From positions 1 through 64,000 of the forward strand of contig CANLQE010000001.1 in the NCBI GenBank assembly GCA_947493215.1: DNA of 64,000 nt, read 5' to 3'. Below are positions 1-14,930 of the stretch, one piece after another (position 1 is the stretch's first letter; each line of letters begins with the position of its first letter). The notes under the pieces are model-generated. The model did no database searches. It had not been told where the DNA came from and worked only from the letters and a program-made list of their open reading frames with translations. The translations under genes and the position numbers were made by a program. The DNA comes from an uncultured Sphingomonadaceae bacterium (GTDB lineage: Bacteria; Pseudomonadota; Alphaproteobacteria; Sphingomonadales; Sphingomonadaceae).

Positions 1-521
1 TCATCGTGCGGAGCACCTATCACAATGGTGTCGCCTGAGAATGCTATACTCTGACCGAACGCATCGCCCTCCGCGCCGTCTGTGGTCAAGAGTTTGGCCT
101 GCTGACTCCAGGTGATCCCAGTGCGAGTGAACACATAGGCAGCACCCGCACCATTCCCGTTCTCGTCATGGCCAATTGCGCCGACTACAGCCGTCTCTTC
201 GGATAGTGCTACATTGCCTCCAAACGTATCATTGGCTTCACCATCAGCAGCAATGAGTTTCGCCTGTTGTCGCCAGATGGTTCCAGACCGTACAAAAACA
301 TAGGCTGAACCAGCATCAAATCCCACGGTTTCATCATCAGATCTATAAGATCCAACTATTGCAATATCGCCCGAAGTCGCGACGCTGAAACCGAAATAAT
401 CTTCCGACGCCCCATCATGGGCGAGCAGCTTTTGCTCATATAGCGGCTGCGCAGCATGTGCCGGGCTCTCAGACAAAAGAAGTAACATCGTCAAGAAAAC
501 CGCGCTGCAGATCGCAATCAT
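1..521 (-). CDS. Secreted FG-GAP repeat (integrin-like beta-propeller) protein, truncated by window edge
   Basis: Read on the minus strand, an ATG at 521 opens a frame that stays open to the left edge, giving the first 173 residues of a longer protein. Residues 1-24 form a hydrophobic signal peptide ending near SPAHA-A. Then come repeated blades of the form KLLA-DGA-x-DYFG-SVA-GD-AIVG followed by GSAYVF and W-QQAKL; three blades are visible. This is the FG-GAP/integrin alpha propeller pattern found in secreted surface proteins. The ligand and the C-terminal domains cannot be seen. An in-frame TGA lies eight codons upstream with no other ATG between, which fixes the start. No clear ribosome binding site is present. 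Confidence 0.8.
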   Translation of the reverse strand, partial: MIAICSAVFLTMLLLLSESPAHAAQPLYEQKLLAHDGASEDYFGFSVATSGDIAIVGSYRSDDETVGFDAGSAYVFVRSGTIWRQQAKLIAADGEANDTFGGNVALSEETAVVGAIGHDENGNGAGAAYVFTRTGITWSQQAKLLTTDGAEGDAFGQSIAFSGDTIVIGAPHD

Positions 522-1177
522 ATGGGGAGAAATATCATCGTTATCTCATTCTCAGCAATTGTGTTTAAATGGAAATACGTTCTCTCGAAACGAACTTGTG
601 GAATTTAATTTCGGTCAACCGAAGCCAAAATGCGTTAATTAGTATGAGGTTACACCATGTGAACTTCGGAAACGCTGTGGTTATGTTGTTCGATAAAGAT
701 CATTTTTTCTTCGACGAACAACATAATTAGCGAGCCAATTGCTCAGTCCAGTTATATGATTTCCTAGCGTCTGTTTTTGCGCCCATAGCGGACATTAAGT
801 TTCATGACCGGTGTTCAATAGCAGCATCCCCTCGCCAGCGGGATTGGCGAGGGGATGCAGGGGCATTTTGGCGAGGAAAGTGTTATTCGTTGGTTACGGG
901 GTCTCGATTCCTCTTCGCTTTCATGCGACCAGAATCGTTATGGGAATATTGCTAGGGCCATGGACAAAATTGTCAGTGAGGCCAAAACAGAACCTGCTAA
1001 TGCGGTTGGGTTGAATCTTGTCATTTCGTATCTCCAATCTTAGATTTCATTCTGGGCGGTGGGTCATCCCTTCGTCCTGATCTCTAAATACGCCGATCCG
1101 TATCGAGGGGCTAACACTGGTCTTGCAAACCTGCTATGCAAAAACGCATAACCCAGATATCAACAGGAGAATTCGCC
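522..1177. other. Intergenic region, no supported gene
   Basis: About 650 A+T-rich bases separate the minus-strand FG-GAP gene from the plus-strand LysR gene. Short open frames in the right half (for example 811-1014) have no ribosome binding site or recognisable sequence and are not accepted. The notable contents are a long perfect hairpin (824-858) and a small dyad TATGC-N6-GCATA at 1135-1150, close in front of the LysR start, which could be an operator. Confidence 0.6.
824..858. repeat. Perfect 14-bp inverted repeat (hairpin)
   Basis: GCATCCCCTCGCCA (824-837) and its exact reverse complement (845-858) flank a 7-base spacer. It is too GC-rich and too perfect to be random in this A+T-rich stretch. 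No T-run follows on either strand, so it is not a standard Rho-independent terminator. It may be a mobile repeat (REP/MITE-like), an operator or an RNA structure. Confidence 0.7.
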
Positions 1178-2089
1178 ATGCTGAACTGGAACGACTTACG
1201 ATACTTTCTTGCCGTCGCTCGAACGGGCAGCACACTTGCTGCTTCAAAACGACTCAAGGTAAGCCAGTCGACAATATCCCGCAGGGTTACGGCGCTCGAG
1301 GACATGACCGGAGTAAAGCTGTTTATCCGCAAGCCATCAGGATACAGCCTAACGCCGCGGGGGAAATCCATGCTCCCTGCGGCTCAATCGGTGGAGGCAG
1401 CTATTCTGTCATTTTCTGACAGCATTGCTGCTGAGGCTCGCCGTCTTGCTGGCACGGTACGACTGACGACTGTGGAATCCGCAGCCAACGCATGGATCAT
1501 ACCCGCACTGGGGCTGCTCCGCGCCCGTTATCCTGACCTGCGGGTGGAGCTAATGACGTCAGACAAAAATCTGGACCTTTCACGCGGCGAAGCTGATGTA
1601 GCCATCCGATTTGGACAGAAGCCGACAGAGGAAACACTGATCGTTCGCCATCTTCTCGATATGCAGGAAAGCTTCTATGCCAACCAGGAACTGGTTGCGA
1701 AATTGGGCATGCCAGAAAATCTTGCTGAGGTTTCCCGTTATCCGCTGGTAATGTCGGTGGATCGCGAAGGGAGTGTCAACCGATGGGTGGCAGAGCACTT
1801 GCCGGACGCTGAAATCGCACATCGCGCCAACACGCTTTCGAGCATCATCGCAAGTCTACGATCCGGGATCGGAGCCTCGGTTCTACCCTGCATGATGGGA
1901 GATGACACGCGCGGCCTCGTAAGGTTGGTGCCCCCGATAGCGGAGCTTACAACGCCTGGCTGGATGGTCACAACCGACGCGGCCCGTCGACAGCCCCATA
2001 TTCGGGCAGTTATCGATTTTGTGGTCGAGCAGCTCCAATTGTGGCTCGCCCGTCACCCCCCTCATCTATCGGTGGTGAGGGCGGCATAA
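1178..2089 (+). CDS. LysR-family transcriptional regulator
   Basis: This 303-residue protein has the usual LysR length. Residues 1-60 form the winged helix-turn-helix (LNWNDLRYFLAVARTGS, then AASKRLKVSQSTISRRVTALE); about 88-295 form the periplasmic-binding-like effector domain. It should be a cytoplasmic, DNA-binding, ligand-responsive regulator; the inducer is unknown. The start at 1178 is chosen because CAGGAGAA sits just upstream and LNWNDLR is the usual beginning; an upstream ATG at 1136 would add 14 unlikely residues. A LysR gene often controls a divergent neighbour, but the nearest divergent gene, the FG-GAP gene, is over 650 bases away, so the target is uncertain. The gene lies in the putative island. 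Confidence 0.9.
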   Translation: MLNWNDLRYFLAVARTGSTLAASKRLKVSQSTISRRVTALEDMTGVKLFIRKPSGYSLTPRGKSMLPAAQSVEAAILSFSDSIAAEARRLAGTVRLTTVESAANAWIIPALGLLRARYPDLRVELMTSDKNLDLSRGEADVAIRFGQKPTEETLIVRHLLDMQESFYANQELVAKLGMPENLAEVSRYPLVMSVDREGSVNRWVAEHLPDAEIAHRANTLSSIIASLRSGIGASVLPCMMGDDTRGLVRLVPPIAELTTPGWMVTTDAARRQPHIRAVIDFVVEQLQLWLARHPPHLSVVRAA

Positions 2090-2149
2090 GTGTGAGCAAT
2101 GATTATGCGCAGAGAGCTAGTAACTCATGGCCAGTGAATGACCGCTAAA

Positions 2150-3500
2150 TCCCGAAAGCATGCATAATTGGGCTAGACTGATTACGAGTCGAGTTCCCGT
2201 TAGATTGTTGGTTTTAAACCAACGACTGAAGGGATAAGAAGATGGGATATTATGTAGGATTGGATGTGGCGCGGCGTTCTGTTGCGCTGTGCGTTATATA
2301 TGATGGAGAGATTGTTCTGGAGCGGGCACTAGCCTGTGAAGTCGATGAGATTGCGGATTACCTTCACAGCTTTGGCAAACCGATAGAGCAGATCGGCTTT
2401 GAAGCAGGCACGATGAGCCAGACGTTGTTCCATGGTCTCACGGTAGCAGGTTATGGCGTGGTGTTTATGGAGGCCCGGCATGTCAGTGCTGCTTTGTCCG
2501 CCATGCGTAACAAAACGGACCGGAACGATGCACGCGGCATAGCTCAAGTTGTTCGCTCCGGTTGGTTTCGAGAGGTACATATGAAGAGCCCAGAAAGCCA
2601 CGATATCCGTACGCTTCTGACGAGCCGCAAGGCATTGGTCAAGCATTGCATTGATCTGGAGAATGAGATACGCGGGCTGCTCAAGGTGTTTGGTATCCGC
2701 TTACCATCTGCTCTAAATCATCATCGTTTTGCTGAGATGGTGAGGCCAATCATTGAGGCTGATGAAGCATTGGCCTTTGCATTATTGCCGATGCTAGAGG
2801 CGCAACAGGCTCTGCTTGCCGGCTATCAGGAGATCGACCGGTGCGTTAAGCTGGTTGCTGGAAGCGATCCGGTCTGCATGCTGATGATGACGGCTCCTGG
2901 CGTTGGTGCAGTAACAGCATTACACTTCAAGGCGGCGATTGATGATCCGACGCGGTTTACATCATCGCGGCTTGTGGGCGCGCACTTTGGCCTGACACCA
3001 AGACGTTTCCAGTCAGGTGAGAGTGATAATCAGGGGCGCATATCTAAAGCCGGTGACGCTGATGTCAGGTCTGCACTTTACTCAGCGGCACATTCCTTGC
3101 TCACACGCACGCGCATCATGTCCCCGCTCAAATCATGGGGACTGCGCTTTATCAAAACAAAGGGCCGCAGGCGCGCTACAGTTGCTGTCGCCCGCGAGCT
3201 TGCCATCATCCTGAACCGGATGTGGATCGACGGAACCCAGTTCCAATGGAATGATCAGGAGGCAATAGCATGACAAAAACCTGATCAAACCAAAGGAAGA
3301 AGCGTCCTCATCTGGACGTTGGTATGGGGATGATGCCGTTTTTGTCCGATGCACCAATAAAAGCGCGCCCGAAAGCAAGGCACTCTCCTAACCGATCTTA
3401 TACATGCATGCAGCTATCATCATAGACTGCGGAGAGAAGCGTGACCCAGATGAATGACAAACAAACCAGGGAACTTGACAGATGCCAATTAGAGAAGCGG
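2150..3500 (+). mobile_element. IS110-family insertion sequence (ends approximate)
   Basis: An IS110-type DEDD transposase is flanked by about 150 and 320 non-coding bases. As is usual for the family, no terminal inverted repeats are obvious, so the limits are estimates. The right part holds TTGACA at 3475-3480 near the expected end, and the left part holds CATAAT at 2163-2168; in a circular intermediate these could form a promoter driving the transposase. The 10-mer CCCGAAAGCA occurs on both sides (2151-2160 and 3368-3377). A near-palindrome GTTGGTTT-T-AAACCAAC lies at 2207-2223, just before the transposase. Recent work on IS110 elements shows that a non-coding end encodes a bridge RNA, and either flank here could do so. 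Confidence 0.6.
2242..3273 (+). CDS. IS110-family transposase (DEDD recombinase)
   Basis: This complete 343-residue protein has the family layout. The N-terminal RuvC-like DEDD domain (about 1-160) begins YYVGLDVARRSVALCV and includes IGFEAG and KTDRNDARGIAQVVR. A coiled-coil linker follows, and the C-terminal Tnp part (about 215-320) carries MTAPGVGAVTALHF and GAHFGLTPRRFQSGE-x-GRISKAGD with the conserved serine region. It excises and integrates the element through a circular intermediate. AAGGGATAAGAAG precedes the ATG. No frameshift is seen, so it may be active. It inserted between the LysR gene and the two-component block, in line with the region being accessory. Confidence 0.93.
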   Translation: MGYYVGLDVARRSVALCVIYDGEIVLERALACEVDEIADYLHSFGKPIEQIGFEAGTMSQTLFHGLTVAGYGVVFMEARHVSAALSAMRNKTDRNDARGIAQVVRSGWFREVHMKSPESHDIRTLLTSRKALVKHCIDLENEIRGLLKVFGIRLPSALNHHRFAEMVRPIIEADEALAFALLPMLEAQQALLAGYQEIDRCVKLVAGSDPVCMLMMTAPGVGAVTALHFKAAIDDPTRFTSSRLVGAHFGLTPRRFQSGESDNQGRISKAGDADVRSALYSAAHSLLTRTRIMSPLKSWGLRFIKTKGRRRATVAVARELAIILNRMWIDGTQFQWNDQEAIA

Positions 3501-3597
3501 ACATTAGTATTATTCAAATCCCTGTGTCTCTTGGCTAATCGATAGAGATAGAAAAATGCAGAATATTGTAAGTTCATCTCGGTAACCTACTATTGGG
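3274..3597. other. Right flank of the IS110 element, non-coding
   Basis: No gene is supported here. It holds a hairpin CGTCC-N6-GGACG (3303-3318), the second copy of CCCGAAAGCA (3368-3377), the repeat GCATGCA (3406-3412) and TTGACA (3475-3480). The probable right end of the element lies shortly after that hexamer; the remaining bases are host sequence up to the stop of the kinase gene. Confidence 0.5.
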
Positions 3598-5913
3598 CTA
3601 TGCGGCTTTTTTGTCTGCGTCACCATCAAGCCAAGTTGCAAGTAGGTCTCTTAAAGATTCTATTGAAAAAGGCTTGGCGAGATGAGCTTGCATGCCCACT
3701 GAGAGACAGTCTTTGATATCTTGAGCATATGCATTTGCGGTCAATGCAATGATCGGCAATTCCGTAGCCGAGATACCATTGTTTCGGATAATTTCAGTAG
3801 CGTTGAGGCCATCGATATATGGCATTTGAATATCCATCAGAACTAAATCAAATGGCTCACCATTCTGTTTAGCCTGTCCTATGATTGCGATTGCATCTAC
3901 TCCGTTATCAGCGATAACAAAATCAAATTCCAAGTTTGTCAACATATCAGAAAGAAGCATTTGATTCACATCATGGTCTTCTGCCATTAGAATTTTTGCT
4001 CTTTTTTTACGAACAGCAGACGATTTCGGCGCTTTATTCGATTGTTTATCCTGATTGGCCGAGCTCCCGTCACTATCTCCAATAGAAATGTCTACTGGAA
4101 TTTTGACTGTAAACTGGGTACCTTTGAAAACTTGGCTGTCCATCGACATTTCACCGCCCATTAGATGAACCAGTTGATTGCTGATCGACAAACCAAGCCC
4201 GGTACCGCCATATTTTCGCGCTGTAGAATCATCCGCTTGTTGGAACGGCTCAAATACCGCAGCTTGCCGATCAGGCGCGATACCGATGCCCGTGTCAGAG
4301 ATCAAAATCGATACTTCCGCGAGCCTATGGGTTTCAATCGGCATATATCTAACCGCGAGACGCACATGTCCTTTATCAGTAAACTTCACAGCATTTGCTA
4401 GCAGGTTCAGCAATATCTGACGCAACCTCAGAGCATCGCCTTTAATCATTTCCGGAAGTAAAGAATCGACTTCCATGATCAATTCAAGCCCCTTCGTTTC
4501 TGCGGATGGCGAGACCATTTTCATGCAGTTTTGCAAAACATGGCGCAGATTTAGTGGTTCGATGCTTAATTCCATCAATCCAGCATCAACCTTCGATATA
4601 TCTAGAATATCGTTCAGTAAGTTCATCATCACTGAACCAGATTCAGATATCATTTGCACATATCGTTGCTGTTTATCGTCTAGTTTTCCGTTGTCGAGCA
4701 GTTGAGTAAAACCGATAACACCGTTCATTGGGGTACGAATTTCATGACTCATATTAGCAAGAAATTTTGACTTGGCTTGGGTGGCTGACTCAGCGCGAGC
4801 TAGCGCATGGCTCACTTCTCGTTCCTTTTGCACTAACTCTTCCGTTTTGATTCTCACTTCGTTGCGAACATATGTTTCACGACGTGCATAAAAGAGCATC
4901 ATAATCAGAAATGCGCTGGATACCATTGCACCGCCAACCAATATTAAAAAAGGTTCTCGAGAACTTACGCTTGCTTCAAACTCTGGAGTACTTTTCCAAA
5001 CCACTGTCCAATTTTGGCCCATTATAGAAAAGTCTCGGGTGATCGAATAGAGCGACTTTTGTGCTATTGTGTCTTCTCCATCGCTCGCGAATATTAAATT
5101 GGATGGACCCGGAGTATTTCCGTCGTAGACTTCTATGTTGAGACTTGTGCCTTGGGTGTTTGTCAAGCCGTCCATAAGACGCGAAGCAATAAACGGCGCA
5201 TATACCCACCCGCGAAAAGCTTCACGACGTTGCTGCTGGTTCGCCAAAGGGTGGCCTTGCTTGTACATCGGTCGCAACAGCAAGAACCCAGCGCTTCTAG
5301 TCTCGTCTTGCACGAGAAATATACGTTTTGTGATTGTCGCTTTTCCAGTGTCCTTTGCACGATAGGCTGCTTCTCGGCGATTGGCCTCGAATCCGATATC
5401 TAGCCCTACAGCTTCCCTATTTGTTTCTATCGGCTCGATATATGTAATTGACAAAACCTCGGAGAATTCAGTGACAGGATGAATCTCGATTTTTCCAACA
5501 CCTCTTTCGCGGGCAGATTGCAAATAACTTTCAATATTTGTGCGCTGAAAAGGCTGAATGAAGCCTATACCGTTAATTCCAGGAAGCGTTTTCTCAATAT
5601 TTAGAACACTTACATAGGCTTTCCATTCGGCGAGCGAAACAGACTGGGAAGCTTCAAATAATGCTGCCCCACCATCCAGGCTTTGTCGATAAGAGTCTAA
5701 TCGGCTCCTCATCGCATGCCCGTTATCTGCAGTTAGAGCATCGAACGCAGCCAAATTGCGCTCGTAAGTCGTAACAGTCGCCATTTTCCATGCCCATGTT
5801 GTGATTGCGAGCAATAGAATAAGACCGAACAACCCAACCAATCCGATCGTAAAACTTACATGATCTGCTCTTAGCTGTTTCCAAAAGTTTAGATTGAGGG
5901 GTAAGATATTCAT
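3598..5913 (-). CDS. CHASE-domain hybrid histidine kinase (HisKA-HATPase-REC)
   Basis: A 771-residue membrane sensor kinase. A first membrane segment (about 20-43) and a second (about 320-343) bracket a periplasmic CHASE domain containing LPGINGIGFIQPF (111-122). A coiled linker leads to HisKA with phospho-acceptor H390 in FLANMSHEIRTPMNG, then HATPase_c with N box LLNLLANAVKFT and G boxes DTGIGIAP and YGGTGLGLSIS, then a receiver with D694 in LVLMDIQMP. CHASE domains sense small extracellular ligands; the ligand here is unknown. ATG overlaps the stop of the upstream receiver gene as ATGA, so the two are translationally coupled. Its kinase core resembles that of the MASE1 kinase at 29160-31991. 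It has no HPt domain, which is supplied next door. Confidence 0.93.
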   Translation of the reverse strand: MNILPLNLNFWKQLRADHVSFTIGLVGLFGLILLLAITTWAWKMATVTTYERNLAAFDALTADNGHAMRSRLDSYRQSLDGGAALFEASQSVSLAEWKAYVSVLNIEKTLPGINGIGFIQPFQRTNIESYLQSARERGVGKIEIHPVTEFSEVLSITYIEPIETNREAVGLDIGFEANRREAAYRAKDTGKATITKRIFLVQDETRSAGFLLLRPMYKQGHPLANQQQRREAFRGWVYAPFIASRLMDGLTNTQGTSLNIEVYDGNTPGPSNLIFASDGEDTIAQKSLYSITRDFSIMGQNWTVVWKSTPEFEASVSSREPFLILVGGAMVSSAFLIMMLFYARRETYVRNEVRIKTEELVQKEREVSHALARAESATQAKSKFLANMSHEIRTPMNGVIGFTQLLDNGKLDDKQQRYVQMISESGSVMMNLLNDILDISKVDAGLMELSIEPLNLRHVLQNCMKMVSPSAETKGLELIMEVDSLLPEMIKGDALRLRQILLNLLANAVKFTDKGHVRLAVRYMPIETHRLAEVSILISDTGIGIAPDRQAAVFEPFQQADDSTARKYGGTGLGLSISNQLVHLMGGEMSMDSQVFKGTQFTVKIPVDISIGDSDGSSANQDKQSNKAPKSSAVRKKRAKILMAEDHDVNQMLLSDMLTNLEFDFVIADNGVDAIAIIGQAKQNGEPFDLVLMDIQMPYIDGLNATEIIRNNGISATELPIIALTANAYAQDIKDCLSVGMQAHLAKPFSIESLRDLLATWLDGDADKKAA

Positions 5914-6311
5914 ATCGACTGGCCAGTTTGCGGCGAATGGCTATCAATACTTTGAACCATAGCAGTTATACGTGCGACCAAGCTTTCTGGATGGAATGGC
6001 TTGGTCATGTAATCGGTTGCACCTGCATCGTATGCCTTAACCATGTGGTTTCGACCCGTCTGCGCAGTCAACATAATCACATGGATTGAGGCTGTGATAG
6101 CATGGTTCTTTAGCTGGGTTAAAATCTCAATTCCCTTTAGCCCGGGCATCAGATTGTCTAGGATTACAATGTCCGGTTCTTCGAGACGGATAATTTCCAA
6201 GGCTTGCATCCCACTATCTACAACAGCAACTATGTGACCACTTTCTTGTAGTTTGTGGAATACCACTTCCACAATTAATGCGTCATCGTCAGCTATTAGT
6301 ATTTGTGCCAT
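5910..6311 (-). CDS. Single-domain response regulator (CheY-like receiver)
   Basis: A 133-residue protein that is only a receiver. It opens MAQILIADDDALIVE with acidic-pocket D8, D9 and D10, phospho-acceptor D52 in IVILDNLMPG, a T near LTAQTG and K in MTKPFHPE. No output domain follows. The start at 6311 has AAAGGAA just upstream; a longer frame reaching 6452 would add 47 unrelated residues. Its stop overlaps the kinase start, so it is probably the first gene of a two-gene operon and a phosphate shuttle or regulator of that kinase. A divergent gene set begins at 6639. Confidence 0.9.
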   Translation of the reverse strand: MAQILIADDDALIVEVVFHKLQESGHIVAVVDSGMQALEIIRLEEPDIVILDNLMPGLKGIEILTQLKNHAITASIHVIMLTAQTGRNHMVKAYDAGATDYMTKPFHPESLVARITAMVQSIDSHSPQTGQSI

Positions 6312-6638
6312 CGAATATTTCCTTTTCTGGCCGCGTAACTGGAAGATCGCAAAACCAACATCAGCTGTGAAATTTAAGTTTCGAAACAAAAACTTGTTGA
6401 GATTGTTACGGTAATTGTGCGCTAGACTTAAAGCTGAAGCCATTTCAATCACGGTTGATCAGAAAAATACCGCAGATTTGCCAAGCTTTTTTGCTCCAAC
6501 TATTTTGTGACACTAAATCTCAGAAAATGAAGCACTTAAGAAATTTCGCAAGCGGTCGTTAATTAATGAGAACAGACCACTCGGCAAGAAGTTGGTTAAA
6601 CGAGAAGCTTTAGGACCAACCTTTGGGAGCAACAAAAA

Positions 6639-7424
6639 ATGTACATCGAACCGACCAAGGAAGCATTGGATGGAGTTGCTGAAAATCCTGCGGAATTGTC
6701 ACCTAAAGGCTATTTGTTGTTAGTTGAGGATCACGATATCAATCAAATTCTTATCAAAGCGATGACAGAGCAGTTAGGTTATCGAACAGAACTGGCGACC
6801 GACGGGGCAGAAGCTGTTGCCTGGATTGATTCTGCGAGGTCGAAAAACAGCCGAATTGATCTGGTTTTGATGGATCTCCAAATGCCGATTATGGATGGAT
6901 TGGAGGCGACGCGCATGATCCGCGCCAGCGGCTTATCGAAACATTGCTTGCCTATTGTCGCCATTACAGCAAATGCTGATCAAGGTGATATTGATAGATG
7001 CCTAGCTGCAGGAATGCAGGATCATATCGCAAAGCCCGTGATGATGGAAGAATTGCAAACTGTTCTTGAAGAGAGAATACCGCGCGATGCACGTAAGCCC
7101 AGCAAATTACCGCATACTGACAGAGATCTTCAATTCTCTGACGCTCTAAATGACCGATACGCCAACCGGCGAGATCAAGCGTTTCGAAGCCTGTTGAATC
7201 TTATTCAGGTTGGGACTTTTCTTGATCATGAATTGAACGAAGTTTCTGACCATTTGCACAAGCTGGCTGGCACAGCCGCCATGTTCGGCGAACCGGAACT
7301 CGGCTTGCAGGCGAAGACGCTTGAGGATGGCATCCGGGATTGGAAACGTTCGGACCGGTCTGAAAAAATTCGACAATCTGCGAATGCTTTAATGACAATC
7401 GCTCAGACATCGAAATCCAACTGA
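6639..7424 (+). CDS. Receiver-HPt phosphotransfer protein
   Basis: In this 261-residue cytoplasmic protein, residues 24-145 are a receiver (GYLLLVEDHDINQ; D79 in LVLMDLQMP; AKPVMMEEL) and about 165-255 are a histidine phosphotransfer domain with H207 in LHKLAGTAAMFG. It has no kinase and no DNA-binding part. The adjacent hybrid kinase lacks an HPt, so this protein could complete a His-Asp-His relay. It closely resembles, over its whole length, the C-terminal receiver-HPt portion of the core MASE1 hybrid kinase (29160-31991). Its stop overlaps the next start as TGATG, implying coupled translation. The intergenic 6312-6638 must hold divergent promoters. Confidence 0.9.
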   Translation: MYIEPTKEALDGVAENPAELSPKGYLLLVEDHDINQILIKAMTEQLGYRTELATDGAEAVAWIDSARSKNSRIDLVLMDLQMPIMDGLEATRMIRASGLSKHCLPIVAITANADQGDIDRCLAAGMQDHIAKPVMMEELQTVLEERIPRDARKPSKLPHTDRDLQFSDALNDRYANRRDQAFRSLLNLIQVGTFLDHELNEVSDHLHKLAGTAAMFGEPELGLQAKTLEDGIRDWKRSDRSEKIRQSANALMTIAQTSKSN

Positions 7425-7816
7425 TGGCTCGGATAATATACGCCGAAGATGATGACATCATGGGTGAAATTGTTCGCAATACGTTGGGAAGCGCAGGCCA
7501 CGTCGTCGGTATAGTGGAAAATGGTAAAGCTGCATTGCAAGCAATAAGTATAAAATTACCGGAACTTGTGATACTAGATTGCTCTATCCCCGAGTTGTCG
7601 GGGATTGAGGTGCTAAGGGCGATCCGCCTCAGTCGTGATTTTTACAACACCCCCGTATTGATGCTAACAGGGCGTAACAGCCAGAGGGATGTTAGTCTGG
7701 CGGCCTATGCTGGTGCGGATGGATACATTACAAAGCCTTTCGACCCCGAATACCTTATTTTCCTCGCCGAATCCTTGATTAGAGAGGGGCGTTCTGGAGG
7801 AAACATGAGTCACTGA
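7424..7816 (+). CDS. Single-domain response regulator (CheY-like receiver)
   Basis: A 130-residue receiver: MARIIYAEDDDIMGE with acidic residues at 8-11, phospho-acceptor D52 in LVILDCSIPELSG, T in MLTGRNS and K in YITKPFDPE. There is no output domain. The start codon overlaps the stop of the receiver-HPt gene, so they form a coupled pair. It resembles the minus-strand receiver at 5910-6311 in length and motif layout, suggesting duplication within the cluster. A plausible role is final phosphate acceptor acting by protein contact, but no partner can be named. Confidence 0.9.
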   Translation: MARIIYAEDDDIMGEIVRNTLGSAGHVVGIVENGKAALQAISIKLPELVILDCSIPELSGIEVLRAIRLSRDFYNTPVLMLTGRNSQRDVSLAAYAGADGYITKPFDPEYLIFLAESLIREGRSGGNMSH

Positions 7817-7942
7817 CGCTCTGGATCAGTTCGCCATGAAGTTACTCGATTTGCTGATGGAAAAATAAAACTACAGCGAACATTTGTTGGACCGCTAAAC
7901 AGGCGAACTTCATTTTTCATACTAAATGTTATCAGAGACGAC

Positions 7943-8494
7943 ATGGAAACAACCACAAATTTAGCTGCAAACATGGGAAGTCAAGCAATGAGCCTAGTTA
8001 CAAAATTGGACGACGAGATCGGCAGGCTTTCAGCCCTAAATCGATACAATATTCTCGATACAGGGCACGAAGAACGATTTGATCGCATAACCAAAGTTGT
8101 GGAAATGGCACTCAGTTGTCCGATAACAGCAATTTCACTTGTTGATACTGAACGGCAATGGTTCAAATCCAAGATAGGTCTCGATGTAGATGGAACAGCG
8201 AGAAACGTAGCTTTTTGTACTTATACCATTCAAGACACTGTGCCATTGATCATCGAAGATGCTATGCAAGACCATCGCTTTATTGAAAATCCGCTCGTTA
8301 CAGGCAAACCTAACATAAGAAGTTATTTAGGTGTTCCGCTTCGGTCGCCAGATGGATTCAATATTGGAACACTGTGCGCAATTGACACCGTGCCGAGAAA
8401 ATTTGATGATAAATCCATCGAACTATTAGCTAACTTGGCTGAACTTGTAGTCTATGAACTGGAACTTCGAAAAAATCCGATAAAGATTCATTGA
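7943..8494 (+). CDS. Stand-alone GAF-domain protein
   Basis: This 183-residue protein consists of one GAF domain (about 25-175). It follows the common sensor pattern of RLSALNRYNILDTG, FDRITKVVEMAL, ISLVDTERQWFKSKIGLD, then AFCTYTI and YLGVPLRSPDGFNIGTLCAID. In most relatives this GAF type sits in front of a kinase or GGDEF domain; here the frame stops after the domain, so it is either a free ligand-binding partner or the remnant of a longer sensor. ATGs at 7943, 7973 and 7988 are all possible starts; the first is given. It follows the receiver pair after 126 bases and probably belongs to the same signalling group. Confidence 0.8.
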   Translation: METTTNLAANMGSQAMSLVTKLDDEIGRLSALNRYNILDTGHEERFDRITKVVEMALSCPITAISLVDTERQWFKSKIGLDVDGTARNVAFCTYTIQDTVPLIIEDAMQDHRFIENPLVTGKPNIRSYLGVPLRSPDGFNIGTLCAIDTVPRKFDDKSIELLANLAELVVYELELRKNPIKIH

Positions 8495-8505
8495 CCGGCG
8501 CGCTG

Positions 8506-8706
8506 TCATGTAGCGCCTTCGCAATTGAACCAAAGAGCCTTTTCCTGCGATCCAAGAAGCAGTGGGATACGTTCCGAGATACTGGGTAACCCAAACACCG
8601 CAATTGTTCTTGTGCGTCTGACGCAATCCTTAGCAGAAAGGACGAGTATCTGTTCTAATGCATCGAGTGCCATTGCAACCAGCCGGTCGTCAGACACAAA
8701 ACTCAC
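8506..8706 (-). CDS. Small hypothetical protein or gene remnant (doubtful)
   Basis: The minus-strand frame encodes about 66 residues from a GTG at 8706, with protein-like runs (DDRLVAMALDALEQILVLSAKD, then RTIAVFGLPSISERIPLLLGSQ). The frame remains open upstream to about 8804 with further protein-like sequence but no ATG or GTG there, so it could be the decayed end of a longer gene. The ribosome binding site is weak. No family is recognised. It converges on the GAF gene, ending 12 bases from that gene's stop. Confidence 0.25.
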   Translation of the reverse strand: MSFVSDDRLVAMALDALEQILVLSAKDCVRRTRTIAVFGLPSISERIPLLLGSQEKALWFNCEGAT

Positions 8707-9092
8707 GGCTTTCTTCTGAGCGCCCAGATGAATGAAGATATGCTGGCTAAGATCGCCGCGAGTGCAATGAGAATTGAGCTGTCCAAAACAACCACAAGAA
8801 ACCTACCTTTCGAATCAGGGAGGTGATATTGTTCACTTTATGTTCTACGTAGGAAAGCGTTTTCTATTGCCGCTATAACTCACGCTGTAAGAACGCCTCC
8901 ATAGAAGTTGAACAACGGGGCATCACATTAAGCTTTCGATCGCCAGTGAGCTCCTCATAGCATTTTGAACGTATGTAGTTGTGGCATTGAGCTCCGGGAT
9001 AAAAATAATGGTCCTCAGCATCATTAGCCACCCGACACATGCAATGTTCAGTGCAATTATCGATCTCGCAAACAGTGAAAGCGAGATACAAA
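8707..9092. other. Intergenic region, no supported gene
   Basis: About 390 bases between the doubtful minus-strand frame and the small plus-strand gene. A cysteine-rich minus-strand frame at 8873-9100 overlaps the start of the next gene and lacks a binding site; it was not accepted. No repeat, tRNA or terminator was recognised. Confidence 0.5.
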
Positions 9093-9389
9093 ATGAACAA
9101 TTATTTCTTCTCCGTGCCGATCTTCGGTTCACGTCATCATGACGAGTATATTATTTTCGCGGTGAACCTGCACGATGCACAAATCCTGCTAACCTTTTTC
9201 GCCACCGAAGAGCTTGATCACTCCGGCTGGTTAGGTGACGATTGGAAGAAGTTCAACTTCAACGGTTCGATGGCTGAGTTACAAAAAGCAAAGGAGCAGG
9301 ACAAAGCTGGCTTGGGAATTTATGTCTCTGGGGAAGGTTGGAAAATTGTTTCTTTGGATGAGATGAGAGCCAGTAGATATTTGGATTGA
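9093..9389 (+). CDS. Small hypothetical protein
   Basis: Ninety-eight residues from the ATG at 9093, where AGCGAGA gives a moderate ribosome binding site; an upstream ATG at 9039 would add 18 less plausible residues. The sequence is soluble and mixed, with aromatic-rich runs (NNYFFSVPIFGSRHHDEY, GWLGDDWKKFNF) and an acidic C-terminus. It has no signal peptide, membrane segment or cysteine. I do not recognise a family. It stands alone in the accessory region between the signalling block and the recombinase module. Confidence 0.5.
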   Translation: MNNYFFSVPIFGSRHHDEYIIFAVNLHDAQILLTFFATEELDHSGWLGDDWKKFNFNGSMAELQKAKEQDKAGLGIYVSGEGWKIVSLDEMRASRYLD

Positions 9390-9808
9390 ATGCCGGTGGA
9401 TGCTTTTGATATTGCTACATCGGCTACCTGGATGGGTTCGGTGTTCCAAATATCGTTTACTTAGGCTGCACCCGGGTCGTGAGGCGCCGGAATATCTAAG
9501 GTCCTTCAATATTGCACCTGCAACTTGGTCTCGAACGCTCCAATCTCTCTATCTCGCAAAGACGGCTGGTTATAGGAATTCTAACTGCATGCCCTGGAGG
9601 TGCGTGGTTGTTTTATTCGATGTCAGCATGCGAAACACTGACAGGATAAGCGCAATGAGGACGTGGGCCAGATGTATGCTTTCAGAAATACCCCTAAAAG
9701 TGTCAACCCAGAGTAAACTTTCCGCAACACGCGAAGCATTTTATCCCAGAAAATTGTACTTTCTCGTTTTGCTGAGAGTTGCACCTGATCTTACCTCAAA
9801 TATACAAT
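9390..9808. other. Intergenic region, no supported gene
   Basis: About 420 bases lie between the small hypothetical gene and the stop of the HUH-protein gene. A plus-strand frame at 9400-9876 has no family resemblance, is rich in R, L, S and C, and overlaps the HUH gene; it reads as non-coding. No terminator or repeat was recognised. Confidence 0.5.
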
Positions 9809-10744
9809 TCAACCGGTCTTACCAGAGATATGACCCCATAGTTCTCGTGCATTCTGCTGGAACACTCGATTGTTAAACAGTCGCTGATCACCGAGCTCCT
9901 TTCCCTCTTTATGTACGTTCTTAAATGCATAACTCACGCCATGATGTACTGATCCAAAGGGCCTAACAAAGTTGGACTGTCTTTTCTCCGGACCCCATCC
10001 TTTAGGCGGTCGTTTGAATTTCGCACCGATTACGCGGAGCGATGCTTCTTTTAAGATACGTAGACCATAGACCCGCTGAGCTTCATAAAGTCCTTTCCTC
10101 AATTCAACCCTCTTCAACGCATTGCGGCTATTGCCGTGGAGAGTATCAGGAATTTTAAGCGCTGGGATTTCGATTGAGCCGTGAATATGTGGTTCAACTT
10201 GCATGGTGCCGGAGCGATCCCATTCTTCAATGACAAAGTAGAAACTCATGGGACGACCGAAATGCTTGCGGCACTGACGACCAAACTCTCTGCTTACCAT
10301 CTCGCCCAAACTCTGATCGCCGCGTTGATCTTGAAATCGCTTAAGCAGGCTGGCGTTGAGGTGATGGTTGAATGAGATAAACCTTGGCTGCACAATCGTG
10401 GTTTGATCGAGAGCCATAGCCATGCAACCAACTTGAGCCTTCATCCATGGGGTCAAGTCTTTCCAACGCGGTATCAGCTTCACGTCACCAAAGGGGTCTA
10501 AAGGAAACTCTTTGCCTCCATACACTCCCCACCCATCCTTACTCCTAATACTCTTATAAACACTATCTTGTACCAGCTTATCCTGTCCCCCCGTTTCCAT
10601 ACGTACTGTATCGCTTAAAACCCTGGAGACTTTACCGGGTGATCTGTAGAAGTTTCTCTTCACCGCATCCCTTATCCTATTTAGGATAGAGCCCTCTGTG
10701 TCATGCCGACGACTGGTTATAATTATGCTATCTGTTGAGTTCAC
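9809..10744 (-). CDS. Putative Rep-like HUH endonuclease of an integrated element
   Basis: A 311-residue soluble basic protein. Residues 168-193 read SFYFVIEEWDRSG, then EPHIHGSIEIP: an aromatic strand followed by H186-x-H188 within a strand, the metal-binding HUH signature of Rep and relaxase nucleases. A possible catalytic tyrosine with a following lysine lies in SYAFKNVHKEG (Y272, K275). Such proteins nick one DNA strand to start rolling-circle replication or transfer. Family assignment rests on motif and order only. It lies just downstream of, and in the same direction as, the tyrosine recombinase, the pairing expected of an integrative replicating element. The start is GTG at 10744 with a weak binding site. 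Confidence 0.55.
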   Translation of the reverse strand: MNSTDSIIITSRRHDTEGSILNRIRDAVKRNFYRSPGKVSRVLSDTVRMETGGQDKLVQDSVYKSIRSKDGWGVYGGKEFPLDPFGDVKLIPRWKDLTPWMKAQVGCMAMALDQTTIVQPRFISFNHHLNASLLKRFQDQRGDQSLGEMVSREFGRQCRKHFGRPMSFYFVIEEWDRSGTMQVEPHIHGSIEIPALKIPDTLHGNSRNALKRVELRKGLYEAQRVYGLRILKEASLRVIGAKFKRPPKGWGPEKRQSNFVRPFGSVHHGVSYAFKNVHKEGKELGDQRLFNNRVFQQNARELWGHISGKTG

Positions 10745-10838
10745 TTATTGCCAAAACCCTGTGTTTATGGATATCGCTTTCAACGACTTCGATAAATAGT
10801 TCAAATTCCAAATTTGCATCGATGCTTGCTTAGTTAGA

Positions 10839-12551
10839 TTAATTCTTGATGACAGTTGAAAAATCTACACCTTTAAACTGTACTGCTTCAATCATAGTCC
10901 GAAGTCTCTCAACTGTGCCTTGCGGTATGATACCATAACGCCCCGTCATCGAATTGTTGGAATGCCCCATTACAATCTGACCAAATTCAATATCTAAATA
11001 GCCGGCAATCCGCATTTCATCGGCCAAGAGGTGTCGAAACGAATGAGATCCAAACCCATCACGTGCACCCTTTTTCTTCACGCCGATCTTTTCGAGATAC
11101 TCTCTCCAAAACCTCGAGGGTGTTTGACCTAACTCAGGTCTCTTGCCGGCAGTTAGTTCTGGAAATAGCCGTTCATTCCCATCTCGCTTTGATCTCTGCG
11201 CTTGTTTGCGCCAATAATCGTCAAAACCAGCCGCTATCAGGTTAGAATTAAACACTACAAATCTTTTGGATGTTTCACTCTTCAAACTTTGCCCTTTAGC
11301 TATATCGTGTCGAAGATAACCAACGAGGCACCCCTCCCTTTCCTCAATTTCATCCACATGCAGCTGTGCAATCTCAGTGATACGAGAGCCAGTAAACATA
11401 CAAAGCAAAGGAATCCAAAAACGCCAATCATTGGCACGTAGGTCACCGAAGAGATGTTCTTTGCCATCTTTAAGAAACCCAGAGTACAAAGGTGATCGTA
11501 AGATTTGATTTAGCTGGCTTACGGTGAATGGAGGGCGCTGTTTCGCGGCCTTGTCCGGCTTATAATTCATTCCGTTCCAAATGTTGGAAACGCATATACC
11601 GCGTTTCACCAACCATCTAAAAAAACCGGATAACTGTGAGACGTATTTTCCCTTAGACGACTGGCTAAGCAATCTTAAGCTATCCCTTTCAGCAATTTTT
11701 ATACACTCCGCAACGGAAGCGCTGGCAAGTCTTTTTGTTTTCATTCTGGAAGCTGGAAAGGCATCTAGAACCTCTCGGAATGAAGAAGAATGTTTTTTTG
11801 TTAGCGAGCTCACCTTATAATCATCGCCAACCCACTCGATGAACAAATCTATAATCATGCCATATTGCTCAACATTGGCTGGTTTACGATTCTCCTCAAG
11901 AATTAACTCCGAGAGATATTTAACCTTAAAATTGGATAAGCGCTCTCCCTCTTTCGCTCTATTATTACGGTGTTGATTAACAAGCTGAACAAATTGAGAT
12001 GTCGGCGCAGCCTCGTTATCACCTTCCAGCCTCTTAATGGTTACATTAAATGTCTCGATAATTGCCGTCATGATAGAAGGAAGCAGGTGCGCTATCTCGC
12101 CTCCGAATTTAAAACCCTGCTTGTCAATAAATGCTTCTAACAAAACGGTAGCTCTGTCATAATCTTCGGCAATTGACCGCCGTTTCCATTCAGATTGCTG
12201 GAACTTGAGCTTTCCTAACCAACCTTCTAGCTGATCGACACCTTGTGACGCATATAGCTTTGATCTCTGGTGCAGTTCCCCTAGAAATTTATCATAGTAA
12301 GTTTCAACAATTTTCTCATTGATATCCGCAGGAGCGACTGCTTCATCTCCAGCCGAAAGATTGTCAAATCGCTCCTTCTGCGCTGATATGAATTTCATGG
12401 CCCTTTGTTCGGCAAGCCTTCGATCACTCGTTCCCATGGATTTTGTTATTTCAATTTTCCCAAGAGCATCTTGAATGTCCGTTGGAACAGAAAGCCTGAC
12501 ATACAGGTTTGGAGAACCAGGTCGCGGGTGAAGGTATTTAGTCAAAGCCAT
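10839..12551 (-). CDS. Tyrosine recombinase/integrase, long form
   Basis: A 570-residue site-specific recombinase. The N-terminal 60 residues (LYVRLSVPTDIQDALGKIEI) match the arm-binding start seen in many long alphaproteobacterial integrases. A core-binding SAM-like region lies at about 205-330, and the catalytic domain at 340-550 has R390 (MFTGSRITEIAQL), H503 and R506 (SHSFRHLLADEM), H530 (VMGHSNNSMTG) and nucleophile Y539. All residues of the R-H-R-H-Y set are present, so it appears active. It should excise and integrate the local element. The gene points away from the tRNA-Pro-like att site, which begins 143 bases upstream of its start, the usual arrangement for an integrase beside its attachment site. 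The HUH gene follows after 94 bases. Confidence 0.92.
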   Translation of the reverse strand: MALTKYLHPRPGSPNLYVRLSVPTDIQDALGKIEITKSMGTSDRRLAEQRAMKFISAQKERFDNLSAGDEAVAPADINEKIVETYYDKFLGELHQRSKLYASQGVDQLEGWLGKLKFQQSEWKRRSIAEDYDRATVLLEAFIDKQGFKFGGEIAHLLPSIMTAIIETFNVTIKRLEGDNEAAPTSQFVQLVNQHRNNRAKEGERLSNFKVKYLSELILEENRKPANVEQYGMIIDLFIEWVGDDYKVSSLTKKHSSSFREVLDAFPASRMKTKRLASASVAECIKIAERDSLRLLSQSSKGKYVSQLSGFFRWLVKRGICVSNIWNGMNYKPDKAAKQRPPFTVSQLNQILRSPLYSGFLKDGKEHLFGDLRANDWRFWIPLLCMFTGSRITEIAQLHVDEIEEREGCLVGYLRHDIAKGQSLKSETSKRFVVFNSNLIAAGFDDYWRKQAQRSKRDGNERLFPELTAGKRPELGQTPSRFWREYLEKIGVKKKGARDGFGSHSFRHLLADEMRIAGYLDIEFGQIVMGHSNNSMTGRYGIIPQGTVERLRTMIEAVQFKGVDFSTVIKN

Positions 12552-12559
12552 AATGCGCG

Positions 12560-12602
12560 CTGTAGACTACTTCACATCAATTCTGTAGCATTTTCTGTAG
12601 CA
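12560..12602. repeat. Direct repeats of TTCTGTAGCA upstream of the integrase
   Basis: TTCTGTAGCA occurs at 12581-12590 and again at 12593-12602, 12 bases (about one helical turn) apart; a shorter copy CTGTAG lies at 12560-12565. The repeats sit between the integrase start and the att remnant. Integrases and excisionases bind short spaced repeats in such places, so these are candidate arm-type or regulator sites. Confidence 0.45.
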
Positions 12603-12693
12603 ATTTTTTGGTGGTGACTTCCTATAAGCATCTGATTTATATAATTCATTAGGCTTCTCAAGGAAAAAATAGTACCTATTTTCTATTCGTCGA

Positions 12694-12713
12694 GAATCCT
12701 CTCGTCCCGACCA
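12694..12713 (+). other. Candidate attachment site: 3' end of a tRNA-Pro gene
   Basis: The 20 bases GAATCCTCTCGTCCCGACCA read as the end of a tRNA: part of the T-loop, T-stem strand CCTCT, acceptor strand CGTCCCG, discriminator A and CCA. The CGACCA ending with GAATCCT is characteristic of bacterial tRNA-Pro. The bases before it do not continue as a tRNA, so only the 3' end is present, as expected for the distal attachment site of an element integrated into a tRNA gene. A short T-run follows. The intact tRNA should lie at the other end of the element, to the left of base 1. Confidence 0.6.
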
Positions 12714-12743
12714 ATTTTTTCAAAGACCTAGCGCTGTTTTGCG

Positions 12744-14930
12744 TTACTTTTTGGTTGACCCAACCAGTTTTTCACTCGCCTTATTCTTCTCGAGCTCGGC
12801 CGGATCAAACCAGACCGGCTTTAGTTTCTTGTCCACAAATAACTGCATCTGATCGGTATAATGCGGGCTGCCTGGCCGCGTTGTCGCCGAGCCAAAAGGC
12901 TGGATGGACCGCGATTTCACCGCTCCCGCCTTATCCCATTCGACAAACATGATGAAGCTATCACCGTGACGCACCGACAGGCGGCCGTCATCATCAATAT
13001 CCCATAAAGTGGACGCACGAATCGTATCGTTTCCGCCATCGATGGGGAGATCAACATCGCCCTGGCGGAGGCGCAGTACGTCCAGCATGGGCGGATCAAT
13101 CTTGCCGAAATATTCCATCAGATGGTCAACGGTCTCCTGCAATATCTCACGCGGGTCAGGCACCTCGCCACGCTGATAATGCGCCTTGTTTGCAGGACGC
13201 AGCATCTTGAGTGCCAATGCGTCGGCAGGCCCCTTGCCATCAAGATCCCAGTCCCATTTGGCGAGCAATGCTTGTGCCTTGGCAAGTTGCGGATCGTCTT
13301 TCAGGTCCAGCGCGGCAACCTTGTCGAGCCAGTCTTTGGCATAACCGGCCTGGACATAGGCCGTGTCATATTTGATCCGGCGGATTTCCTCTTCGCCAAT
13401 CTTGCCATTGGCTTCCAGCAACTCAATCGACCGGCGCGACCGGTTGGTCTGGTCGTCCTCTATCCCCATCAGCGGGGAAAAAGTTTCCGGGTTCAATTCA
13501 TCGCCGGGCCCGGCCGCGACATAGGGTGTGTTGTTTGCGTTCATCACATAGCCCGAGGCCGGGTTAATAAGCGCCGGAACCCGCGTAAACGGCAGGGTGT
13601 TCTGCCACACGGCTTTGGAATTGTCGCCGGGCAATACGGTCCGCCAGTCAAAGCCGGGTGCACGGTCCGGGAACATGGCGTTATAGAACATTCCGATATT
13701 ACCCTTGGCATCGGCATAGATGAAATTGGTCGCAGGAACGCCCTGCCCTGCCATCGCTGCCTGCCACTCGTCAAAATCCTGCGCCTTGTTGATCCGGTAA
13801 TATTGGGTCAGCATGTCGAGCTGGTCCATGCCTGCATAGCGCAGTGCATAGGCACCGTTGCCGTTCATGATCACCGGACCATGGACAGACCGGTAGATCA
13901 TCTGCGGATAGGGAAGCACAAACGGGCCATATTTAATTTTCAGCCACACGCGCTTTTTCTCCAGCGGCAACCATTCGTCATCAAACTTGTAGGCGTTGCC
14001 CTTTTCGTTCAGCGTGAGCTTGTAGATATCGATGAGATCAGGCCGGTTGACCGTATTGGTCCAACCCAGATTTTTGTTGTGCCCGAGAAACGGGAAAGGT
14101 GAGCCGGGGAAATTGGCGCCAGCAAAATCCCAGCCCTCCTCACTATGGACAACCAGTTCATACCAAGCGACATTCCCGCGCAATGGCTGGTGCGAATTGG
14201 ATATCAGGCGGGTTTTGTCATCACTGGAACGCGCGGGCGTAATGGCATAAGCATTAGAGCCGTTATCATCAGGATCGGGGCCGACCGGCGTGATAATCTT
14301 GTCCTCACTCAACGGATGCACGGTGCGATTTTCGATGGGCACGGCCAGGCTGGGACCACCTTCTTGGCGCAACGGTTTATTCTGGGTCAGCGCCTGTATC
14401 GGCCCATTGAGCCCAAAGAAAAACGGTGAGCGCAGGGCAAAACCAGCAGCAATATCACGACCATTGACCGGAAACAGCTTGGAAAGACTGACTTCATCCG
14501 GATTTTCCTCAGCATAAGCATTGAGGCCGGAAGCATAGCCATCCAACACCGCTCGCACATCTTCTGGCAAGTCGTCATATTTGCGTTTCACCGTGCCATT
14601 GACATCGAGCAGCGCCGCGACATAATCAATCGGAGCGCCATCGGCACCGTTGAGCGTCGCGAGCCGTCCACGGGTCATCGCTGTCACTTCCTGCAGAGTC
14701 GCAAAATCATCCTCGGCATGGGCATAAGCCACACCATAAGCGACATCGGCATCGGTCTTGCCGAAAATATGCGGCACACCAAAATTATCGCGCACTATCC
14801 GGGCTTTATATTCTTTTTCGGACGGCGGTGACACGGACGAGATGCTCATCGGTTCCCAAACGGCCAGCCCGATGGCAACCAGCAAAATCAGGATCATCAA
14901 TCCTATTCCTACTCGCTTGATCACCTTCAT
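12744..14930 (-). CDS. Penicillin acylase-family amidohydrolase
   Basis: This 728-residue protein belongs to the Ntn-hydrolase penicillin/acyl-homoserine-lactone acylase family, which hydrolyse amide bonds of acylated substrates. A single N-terminal hydrophobic segment (about 7-26) suggests export or anchoring. The alpha-chain region opens VRDNFGVPHIFGKTDADVAYGVAYAHAEDD, and the self-cleavage site and nucleophile are at G224-S225-N226 in DDNGSNAYAI, so S225 would become the new N-terminus of the beta chain. Length is typical. The substrate cannot be told from sequence; lactone acylase activity is possible. It is divergent from the aminopeptidase gene, sharing a 114-base promoter region. Confidence 0.9.
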   Translation of the reverse strand: MKVIKRVGIGLMILILLVAIGLAVWEPMSISSVSPPSEKEYKARIVRDNFGVPHIFGKTDADVAYGVAYAHAEDDFATLQEVTAMTRGRLATLNGADGAPIDYVAALLDVNGTVKRKYDDLPEDVRAVLDGYASGLNAYAEENPDEVSLSKLFPVNGRDIAAGFALRSPFFFGLNGPIQALTQNKPLRQEGGPSLAVPIENRTVHPLSEDKIITPVGPDPDDNGSNAYAITPARSSDDKTRLISNSHQPLRGNVAWYELVVHSEEGWDFAGANFPGSPFPFLGHNKNLGWTNTVNRPDLIDIYKLTLNEKGNAYKFDDEWLPLEKKRVWLKIKYGPFVLPYPQMIYRSVHGPVIMNGNGAYALRYAGMDQLDMLTQYYRINKAQDFDEWQAAMAGQGVPATNFIYADAKGNIGMFYNAMFPDRAPGFDWRTVLPGDNSKAVWQNTLPFTRVPALINPASGYVMNANNTPYVAAGPGDELNPETFSPLMGIEDDQTNRSRRSIELLEANGKIGEEEIRRIKYDTAYVQAGYAKDWLDKVAALDLKDDPQLAKAQALLAKWDWDLDGKGPADALALKMLRPANKAHYQRGEVPDPREILQETVDHLMEYFGKIDPPMLDVLRLRQGDVDLPIDGGNDTIRASTLWDIDDDGRLSVRHGDSFIMFVEWDKAGAVKSRSIQPFGSATTRPGSPHYTDQMQLFVDKKLKPVWFDPAELEKNKASEKLVGSTKK

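Follow-up and report, generated by a model that had tools for sequence, protein, structure and literature searches.

The 20 bases at positions 12694–12713 of the analysed window (the opening 64 kb of contig C1; assembly G000, 11 contigs, 3,685,390 bp) are most likely the attR of an element that entered the 3' end of a tRNA-Pro(GGG) gene through the action of a tyrosine recombinase, a reading to which we assign a probability of about 0.92. Judging by its gene content, the host is probably a sphingomonad. Islands integrated into tRNA genes are a known kind of element, and the new point is the assignment suggested here for DUF6538, a domain which to our knowledge has no assigned function. The layout common to a group of related elements and the proposed role of this domain go beyond an ordinary element in a tRNA gene. 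The features discussed in the following are:

12694–12713, plus strand: attR, the 3' end of tRNA-Pro(GGG); an exact second copy ends an intact tRNA-Pro(GGG), with identity over 25 bp
12584–12602, plus strand: two arm-like direct repeats TGTAGCA with a 12-bp period; the paired pattern is also present at the C5 end
10839–12551, minus strand: tyrosine recombinase (integrase) of 570 aa (Pfam, alignment)
9809–10744, minus strand: putative HUH-type (Rep or relaxase-like) protein beside the integrase (HxHG and YxFK)
1–12718, no strand: right part of the element, with the contig starting at 1 (gene content, G+C, Pfam)
12744–14930, minus strand: penicillin amidase gene, the first core gene right of the element (Pfam)

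The remnant (GAATCCTCTCGTCCCGACCA, plus strand) starts 143 bp beyond the start codon of the integrase (ATG at 12551, minus strand), exactly as a previous sequence-only reading of this DNA had it, and comprises the end of the T-loop, the 3' side of the T-stem, the acceptor strand and CCA; the whole T-arm named in that reading is not contained. Its statement that the preceding bases do not form a tRNA agrees with ARAGORN and Rfam (at gathering thresholds), which both found no tRNA in the window. The same reading proposed to search for an intact tRNA-Pro with an identical 20-base end, and such a gene is in fact located on contig C5, with accessory DNA on its 3' side. Here, the exact 20-mer, which occurs at only two sites of the assembly, forms the 3' end (C5:7330–7349, minus strand) of tRNA-Pro(GGG) (C5:7330–7406, minus strand), and allowing 3 mismatches adds one more site, at the 3' end of a tRNA-Pro(TGG) on C1. 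The block identical between both contigs measures 25 bp (window 12694–12718). The 3' end of the tRNA is consequently present as a direct repeat at both borders, which sit on two contigs, with the tRNA being whole at one of them. A match by chance has a practically negligible probability: the remnant is the sole match in the window at up to 3 mismatches, shuffled windows gave a mean of 0.02 at this threshold, and this explanation is refuted by these shuffles together with the partner on C5, the pairing of repeats at the two ends and a layout recurring in related elements.

The repeats provide the strongest single reason for treating C5:1–7349 and window 1–12718 as one element. Copies of TGTAGCA start at 12584 and 12596 of the window, accompanied by a degenerate copy (CTGTAGACT) at 12560, and on the tRNA strand of the C5 end three copies follow each other with a 12-bp period, the first of them 43 bp past the end of the tRNA. 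Throughout the searchable 3.69-Mb assembly, the paired pattern TGTAGCA-N5-TGTAGCA occurs 3 times and is confined to the two ends (one site between integrase and remnant, two overlapping sites just beyond the C5 tRNA-Pro), while the pattern read backwards has 0 occurrences. The most plausible view is therefore that the two stretches terminate a single element, of which 20 kb are seen in addition to an unassembled middle. A 20-base scar and a pair of 7-base repeats sufficed to pair element ends across contigs.

On the right part, the genes encode a LysR regulator, an IS110-family transposase (window 2242–3273), a CHASE-domain histidine kinase and three further response regulators (window 3598–7816), a GAF protein, the HUH-like protein and the integrase; those located at 1–9 kb are probably members of the element. 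The integrase gene lies inside the element and adjoins a border. Its product features DUF6538 near the N-terminus and a Phage_integrase catalytic domain (Pfam), and the residues R, HxxR, H and Y, which we take to be the catalytic ones, were recognised by eye in the alignment. The product of 9809–10744 had no match in Pfam, PHROGs or NCBIfam; homologues in G139 and G432 have HxHG and YxFK in common with it, which we presume to be HUH endonuclease motifs. The left part comprises, on the 3' side of tRNA-Pro(GGG) (C5:1–7329), genes for a C5-cytosine DNA methylase, an ATPase with weak similarity to MzaB, a Methyltransf_35 protein, an HNH nuclease and a serine recombinase, and the 5' side of the tRNA is occupied by yajC, secD and secF. 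Among the proteins of the assembled parts, neither packaging nor capsid genes (16 proteins against Pfam, 5 against PHROGs) nor conjugation genes (the same 16 against Pfam) were recognised. DNA left of the remnant had been described as A+T-rich, which holds for 3–13 kb (43–47% G+C per kb, compared to 49–58% rightward) but not for the first 3 kb (48–55%). The first 797 bp of C1 (window 1–797) recur inverted at the other end of the contig with 97% identity. Moreover, the assembly holds two further tRNA 3' fragments resembling tRNA-Met(CAT), the 3' part of which lies at C1:2396019: one at C5:7195–7217, inside the element and just past the repeats, and one at C1:2394301–2394323, 1.7 kb from this tRNA.

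Further insight came from homologues of the integrase, which were found in 15 of 149 genomes (E ≤ 1e-20) and 25 of 396 genomes (1e-25), whereas a third search using the integrase of a relative as query hit 12 of 397 genomes at 1e-60 (own genome counted in each case). Scans of genome contigs and viral contigs with the integrase alone gave no match. The family set consists of the ten nearest homologues with readable flanks from the 149- and 396-genome searches (32–39% identical); the match of G231 spans residues 173–568, the G413 gene has an internal stop, and the G135 integrase, being encoded at the start of a contig, was not counted with the family. For all ten, a tRNA-Pro 3' end lies past the integrase start, oriented as in the window, at a distance of 117–197 bp in nine and of 37 bp in G140 (measured from the longest ORF). 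A second copy on the same strand follows 10.4–21.5 kb away in 10/10, with the integrase at the far border, and shared blocks at the borders measure 17–31 bp. In nine of the ten, the other border carries an intact tRNA-Pro (six TGG, three CGG). The notion of a distal att copy, left behind by integration into a tRNA-Pro gene, is thereby supported by the uniform placement of these ten integrases as well as by the same repeat pair at both ends of G000.

Repeats at the borders fall into three classes, namely GTAGCA (6 of the 11 elements including G000), GTGACA (2) and TATACA (3). Pairs of the own class, with a spacing of 12 or 13 bp, are exact at 17 of 22 ends and present at 19 of 22 with up to one mismatch (G000 counted), compared to 0 of 44 for pairs of another class and 0 of 22 for the reversed own motif (rising to 3 of 22 with two mismatches); since these very sequences served to define the classes, the counts describe the pattern rather than test it. 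The ends devoid of an own-class pair, i.e., both ends of G359 and the right end of G139, show GTAGCA copies spaced 10–24 bp apart.

When ORFs of at least 80 aa were clustered, only the integrase was common to all 11 elements, and a serine recombinase is encoded in eight of them, including the C5 side of G000. Ten large cargo proteins were picked from seven elements; eight matched models of restriction-modification or other defence systems, many of these matches spanning only part of the model, and two matched none. Apart from the integrase, the elements of G140 and G359 share four gene clusters. In G140, these comprise, among others, terminase and head-morphogenesis genes as well as a gene with a weak portal match, and genes for a major capsid protein and a head-tail adaptor are additionally present there. 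The comparison defines a group of tRNA-Pro elements, all with related integrases; several of the elements carry restriction-type or other defence-like genes, and two share phage-packaging gene clusters.

Not every relative follows the same arrangement: in G353, the left border lacks a tRNA according to ARAGORN, and near the integrase of G624 (L225) two tRNA-Pro 3' ends are present. Such cases could speak for two tandem elements at one site, with the C5 part and the window part being ends of different elements. We consider this improbable for G000, as both of its ends carry the same repeat class (which a tandem partner could share) and the serine recombinase that is widespread among these elements is encoded on the C5 part. 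A further layout variant was observed in G597 (L223), where a reversed tRNA-Pro 3' end lies beside the integrase.

Beyond the right border of what we read as a single element, the penicillin amidase gene allowed a comparison within the genus. Its flanks in 29 relatives (L008–L036, up to 1.5 kb either side, three shortened by contig ends) contain neither a tRNA nor the 20-mer (0 of 29 at up to 3 mismatches); the sequence-only reading had named the presence of the 20 bases and their flanks in relatives lacking the recombinase as one outcome that would speak against it. Of 31 congeners searched, 28 possess the amidase gene, and a tRNA-Pro lies 2.46 kb from it in four (G030, G014, G023 and G026) but not as near in the remaining 24. 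The gene in between encodes in these four a 781-aa, aceE/transketolase-like protein (L095:1956–4301 and equivalents in G014, G023 and G026), for which G000 offers a single distant match (32%). The exact empty junction, i.e., tRNA-Pro followed directly by the amidase gene, was not found in any genome examined. On a tree of the amidase gene covering 16 of 29 genus rows, the four informative relatives cluster together with support and G000 falls outside this cluster, so that at least two changes are needed in this neighbourhood. The amidase gene of G031 adjoins nadB (named by eye), the counterpart of which in G000 lies on C2; a simple reciprocal exchange with nadB as the other breakpoint is unsupported.

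The variability of the DNA adjoining the amidase gene within the genus, together with the additional tRNA-Pro 3' ends that several relatives carry (one of them, at C1:1643155 of G031, isolated), would also be consistent with the remnant being an orphan of a chromosome rearrangement or of an older element, with the present integrase belonging elsewhere. This scenario appears very improbable, since the repeat pair adjoins the tRNA and the remnant and is found nowhere else in the assembly, and the order of integrase, repeats and remnant recurs in ten related elements.

With respect to further copies in the genus, the two other tRNA-Pro(GGG) 3' ends of G031 (C1:3485978 and C1:3544684) lie on the same strand, 58.7 kb apart, and same-strand copies are separated by approximately 105 kb in G005 and 145 kb in G016. 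An 898-bp segment is identical in G012, G016, G025 and G029 (L103, L104, L105 and L106; same genus), where it is flanked by tRNA-Pro(GGG) and by a further copy of the 3' end carrying one mismatch. The longest ATG ORF of this segment spans 62 aa, and it contains what by eye resembles the 3' half of a tRNA-Lys, as well as GGGTAGCATTTTGGGTAGCA repeats.

DUF6538 was recognised by Pfam in the window integrase and in all ten relatives, nine of which lie above the curated cut-off, with G445 just under it. A role of this domain as reader of arm sites is suggested by the observation that, across the 11 elements, the repeat type tracks the N-terminal region more closely than the middle or catalytic parts. 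For residues 1–72, the nearest neighbour by identity shares the repeat class in 11 of 11 integrases, compared to 7 of 11 for the middle (73–340) and 9 of 11 for the catalytic part (341–570). The within-class excess of identity amounts to 13.9 points for residues 1–72 and to 0.9 points for each of the other two parts, with 1, 3,713 and 3,258 of 10,000 label shuffles, respectively, being as strong; these shuffles take no account of relatedness. Of special interest is G231: its N-terminus and its repeats are both of the TATACA type, while its catalytic part is closest to those of G432 and G413, both of the GTGACA class.

As a held-out check, the class of four further integrases was assigned from the N-terminus before the flanks were read, and a tRNA-Pro 3' end was nearby in all four. 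For G617, TATACA was predicted and found, while the catalytic part would give GTGACA. G624 was (weakly) predicted to carry GTAGCA and shows GTAACA, G552 (TATACA predicted) has degenerate copies only, and in G597 the predicted GTAGCA was absent, the tRNA-Pro end being reversed. The outcome is mixed, with one clear success (G617), one near and one miss among the four, and support from these comparisons for DUF6538 as arm reader is accordingly good for the initial 11 elements and mixed for the held-out four. On balance, we lean slightly towards DUF6538 being the arm-site reader of this integrase family, which may be swapped independently of the catalytic part, as exemplified by G231 and G617. A structure predicted for the first 69 residues without an alignment reached a mean pLDDT of 68, too low to be informative, and a literature search for DUF6538 together with integrase found nothing. 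If the assignment is true, integrase and attP would be modular, and paired repeats could serve to match element ends across broken assemblies. The comparison also offers a directly testable role for DUF6538.

Taken together, integration could have proceeded as follows. The attP site would have brought a copy of the tRNA 3' end, thereby keeping the tRNA intact at the left border (C5) and displacing the original 3' end of the host to the right border. The integrase, probably the one encoded at this right border, would cut within the shared block via its catalytic part, and its N-terminal DUF6538 region may bind the TGTAGCA repeats flanking the core, which are situated 43 bp beyond it on the left border and about 110 bp before it on the right. 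The element could still be mobile.

Such an arrangement resembles attP sites of the lambda type, in which short repeated arm sites lie on both sides of a core and the integrase has a separate N-terminal region: in G000, short repeats likewise flank the core and the N-terminal region of the integrase is separate. In contrast, the repeats of the group are direct, mostly 12–13 bp apart, and fall into the classes GTAGCA, GTGACA and TATACA. The elements of G140 (L213) and G359 (L209) are reminiscent of capsid-forming phage satellites (cf-PICI): besides genes for a major capsid protein and a head-tail adaptor, G140 carries the terminase and head-morphogenesis clusters, which it shares with G359. No packaging gene was recognised among the scanned proteins of the assembled G000 parts.

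For the G000 integrase, a phage collection yielded only two matches at E 1e-10 (23–25% identical over two thirds of the protein), and two matches on Acetobacter plasmids, annotated as DUF6538 proteins, are 21–22% identical to the G000 integrase. A homologue in Sinorhizobium (27.6% over 98%) has three CCGTAACA repeats with a 13-bp period before its start; unlike in G000, a tRNA-Pro 3' end was not seen beside it. The use of a tRNA-Pro gene by a tyrosine integrase is shared with prophages such as the Sinorhizobium phages phiLM21 (tRNA-Pro GGG) and 16-3 (tRNA-Pro CGG). In phiLM21, a 64-bp attP fragment matches 45 bp of the tRNA-Pro(GGG) 3' end (PMC12429752). While phiLM21 and 16-3 are phages of 50.8 and 60.2 kb, respectively, the G000 element, of which 20 kb are seen, carries restriction-type cargo and an integrase with DUF6538.
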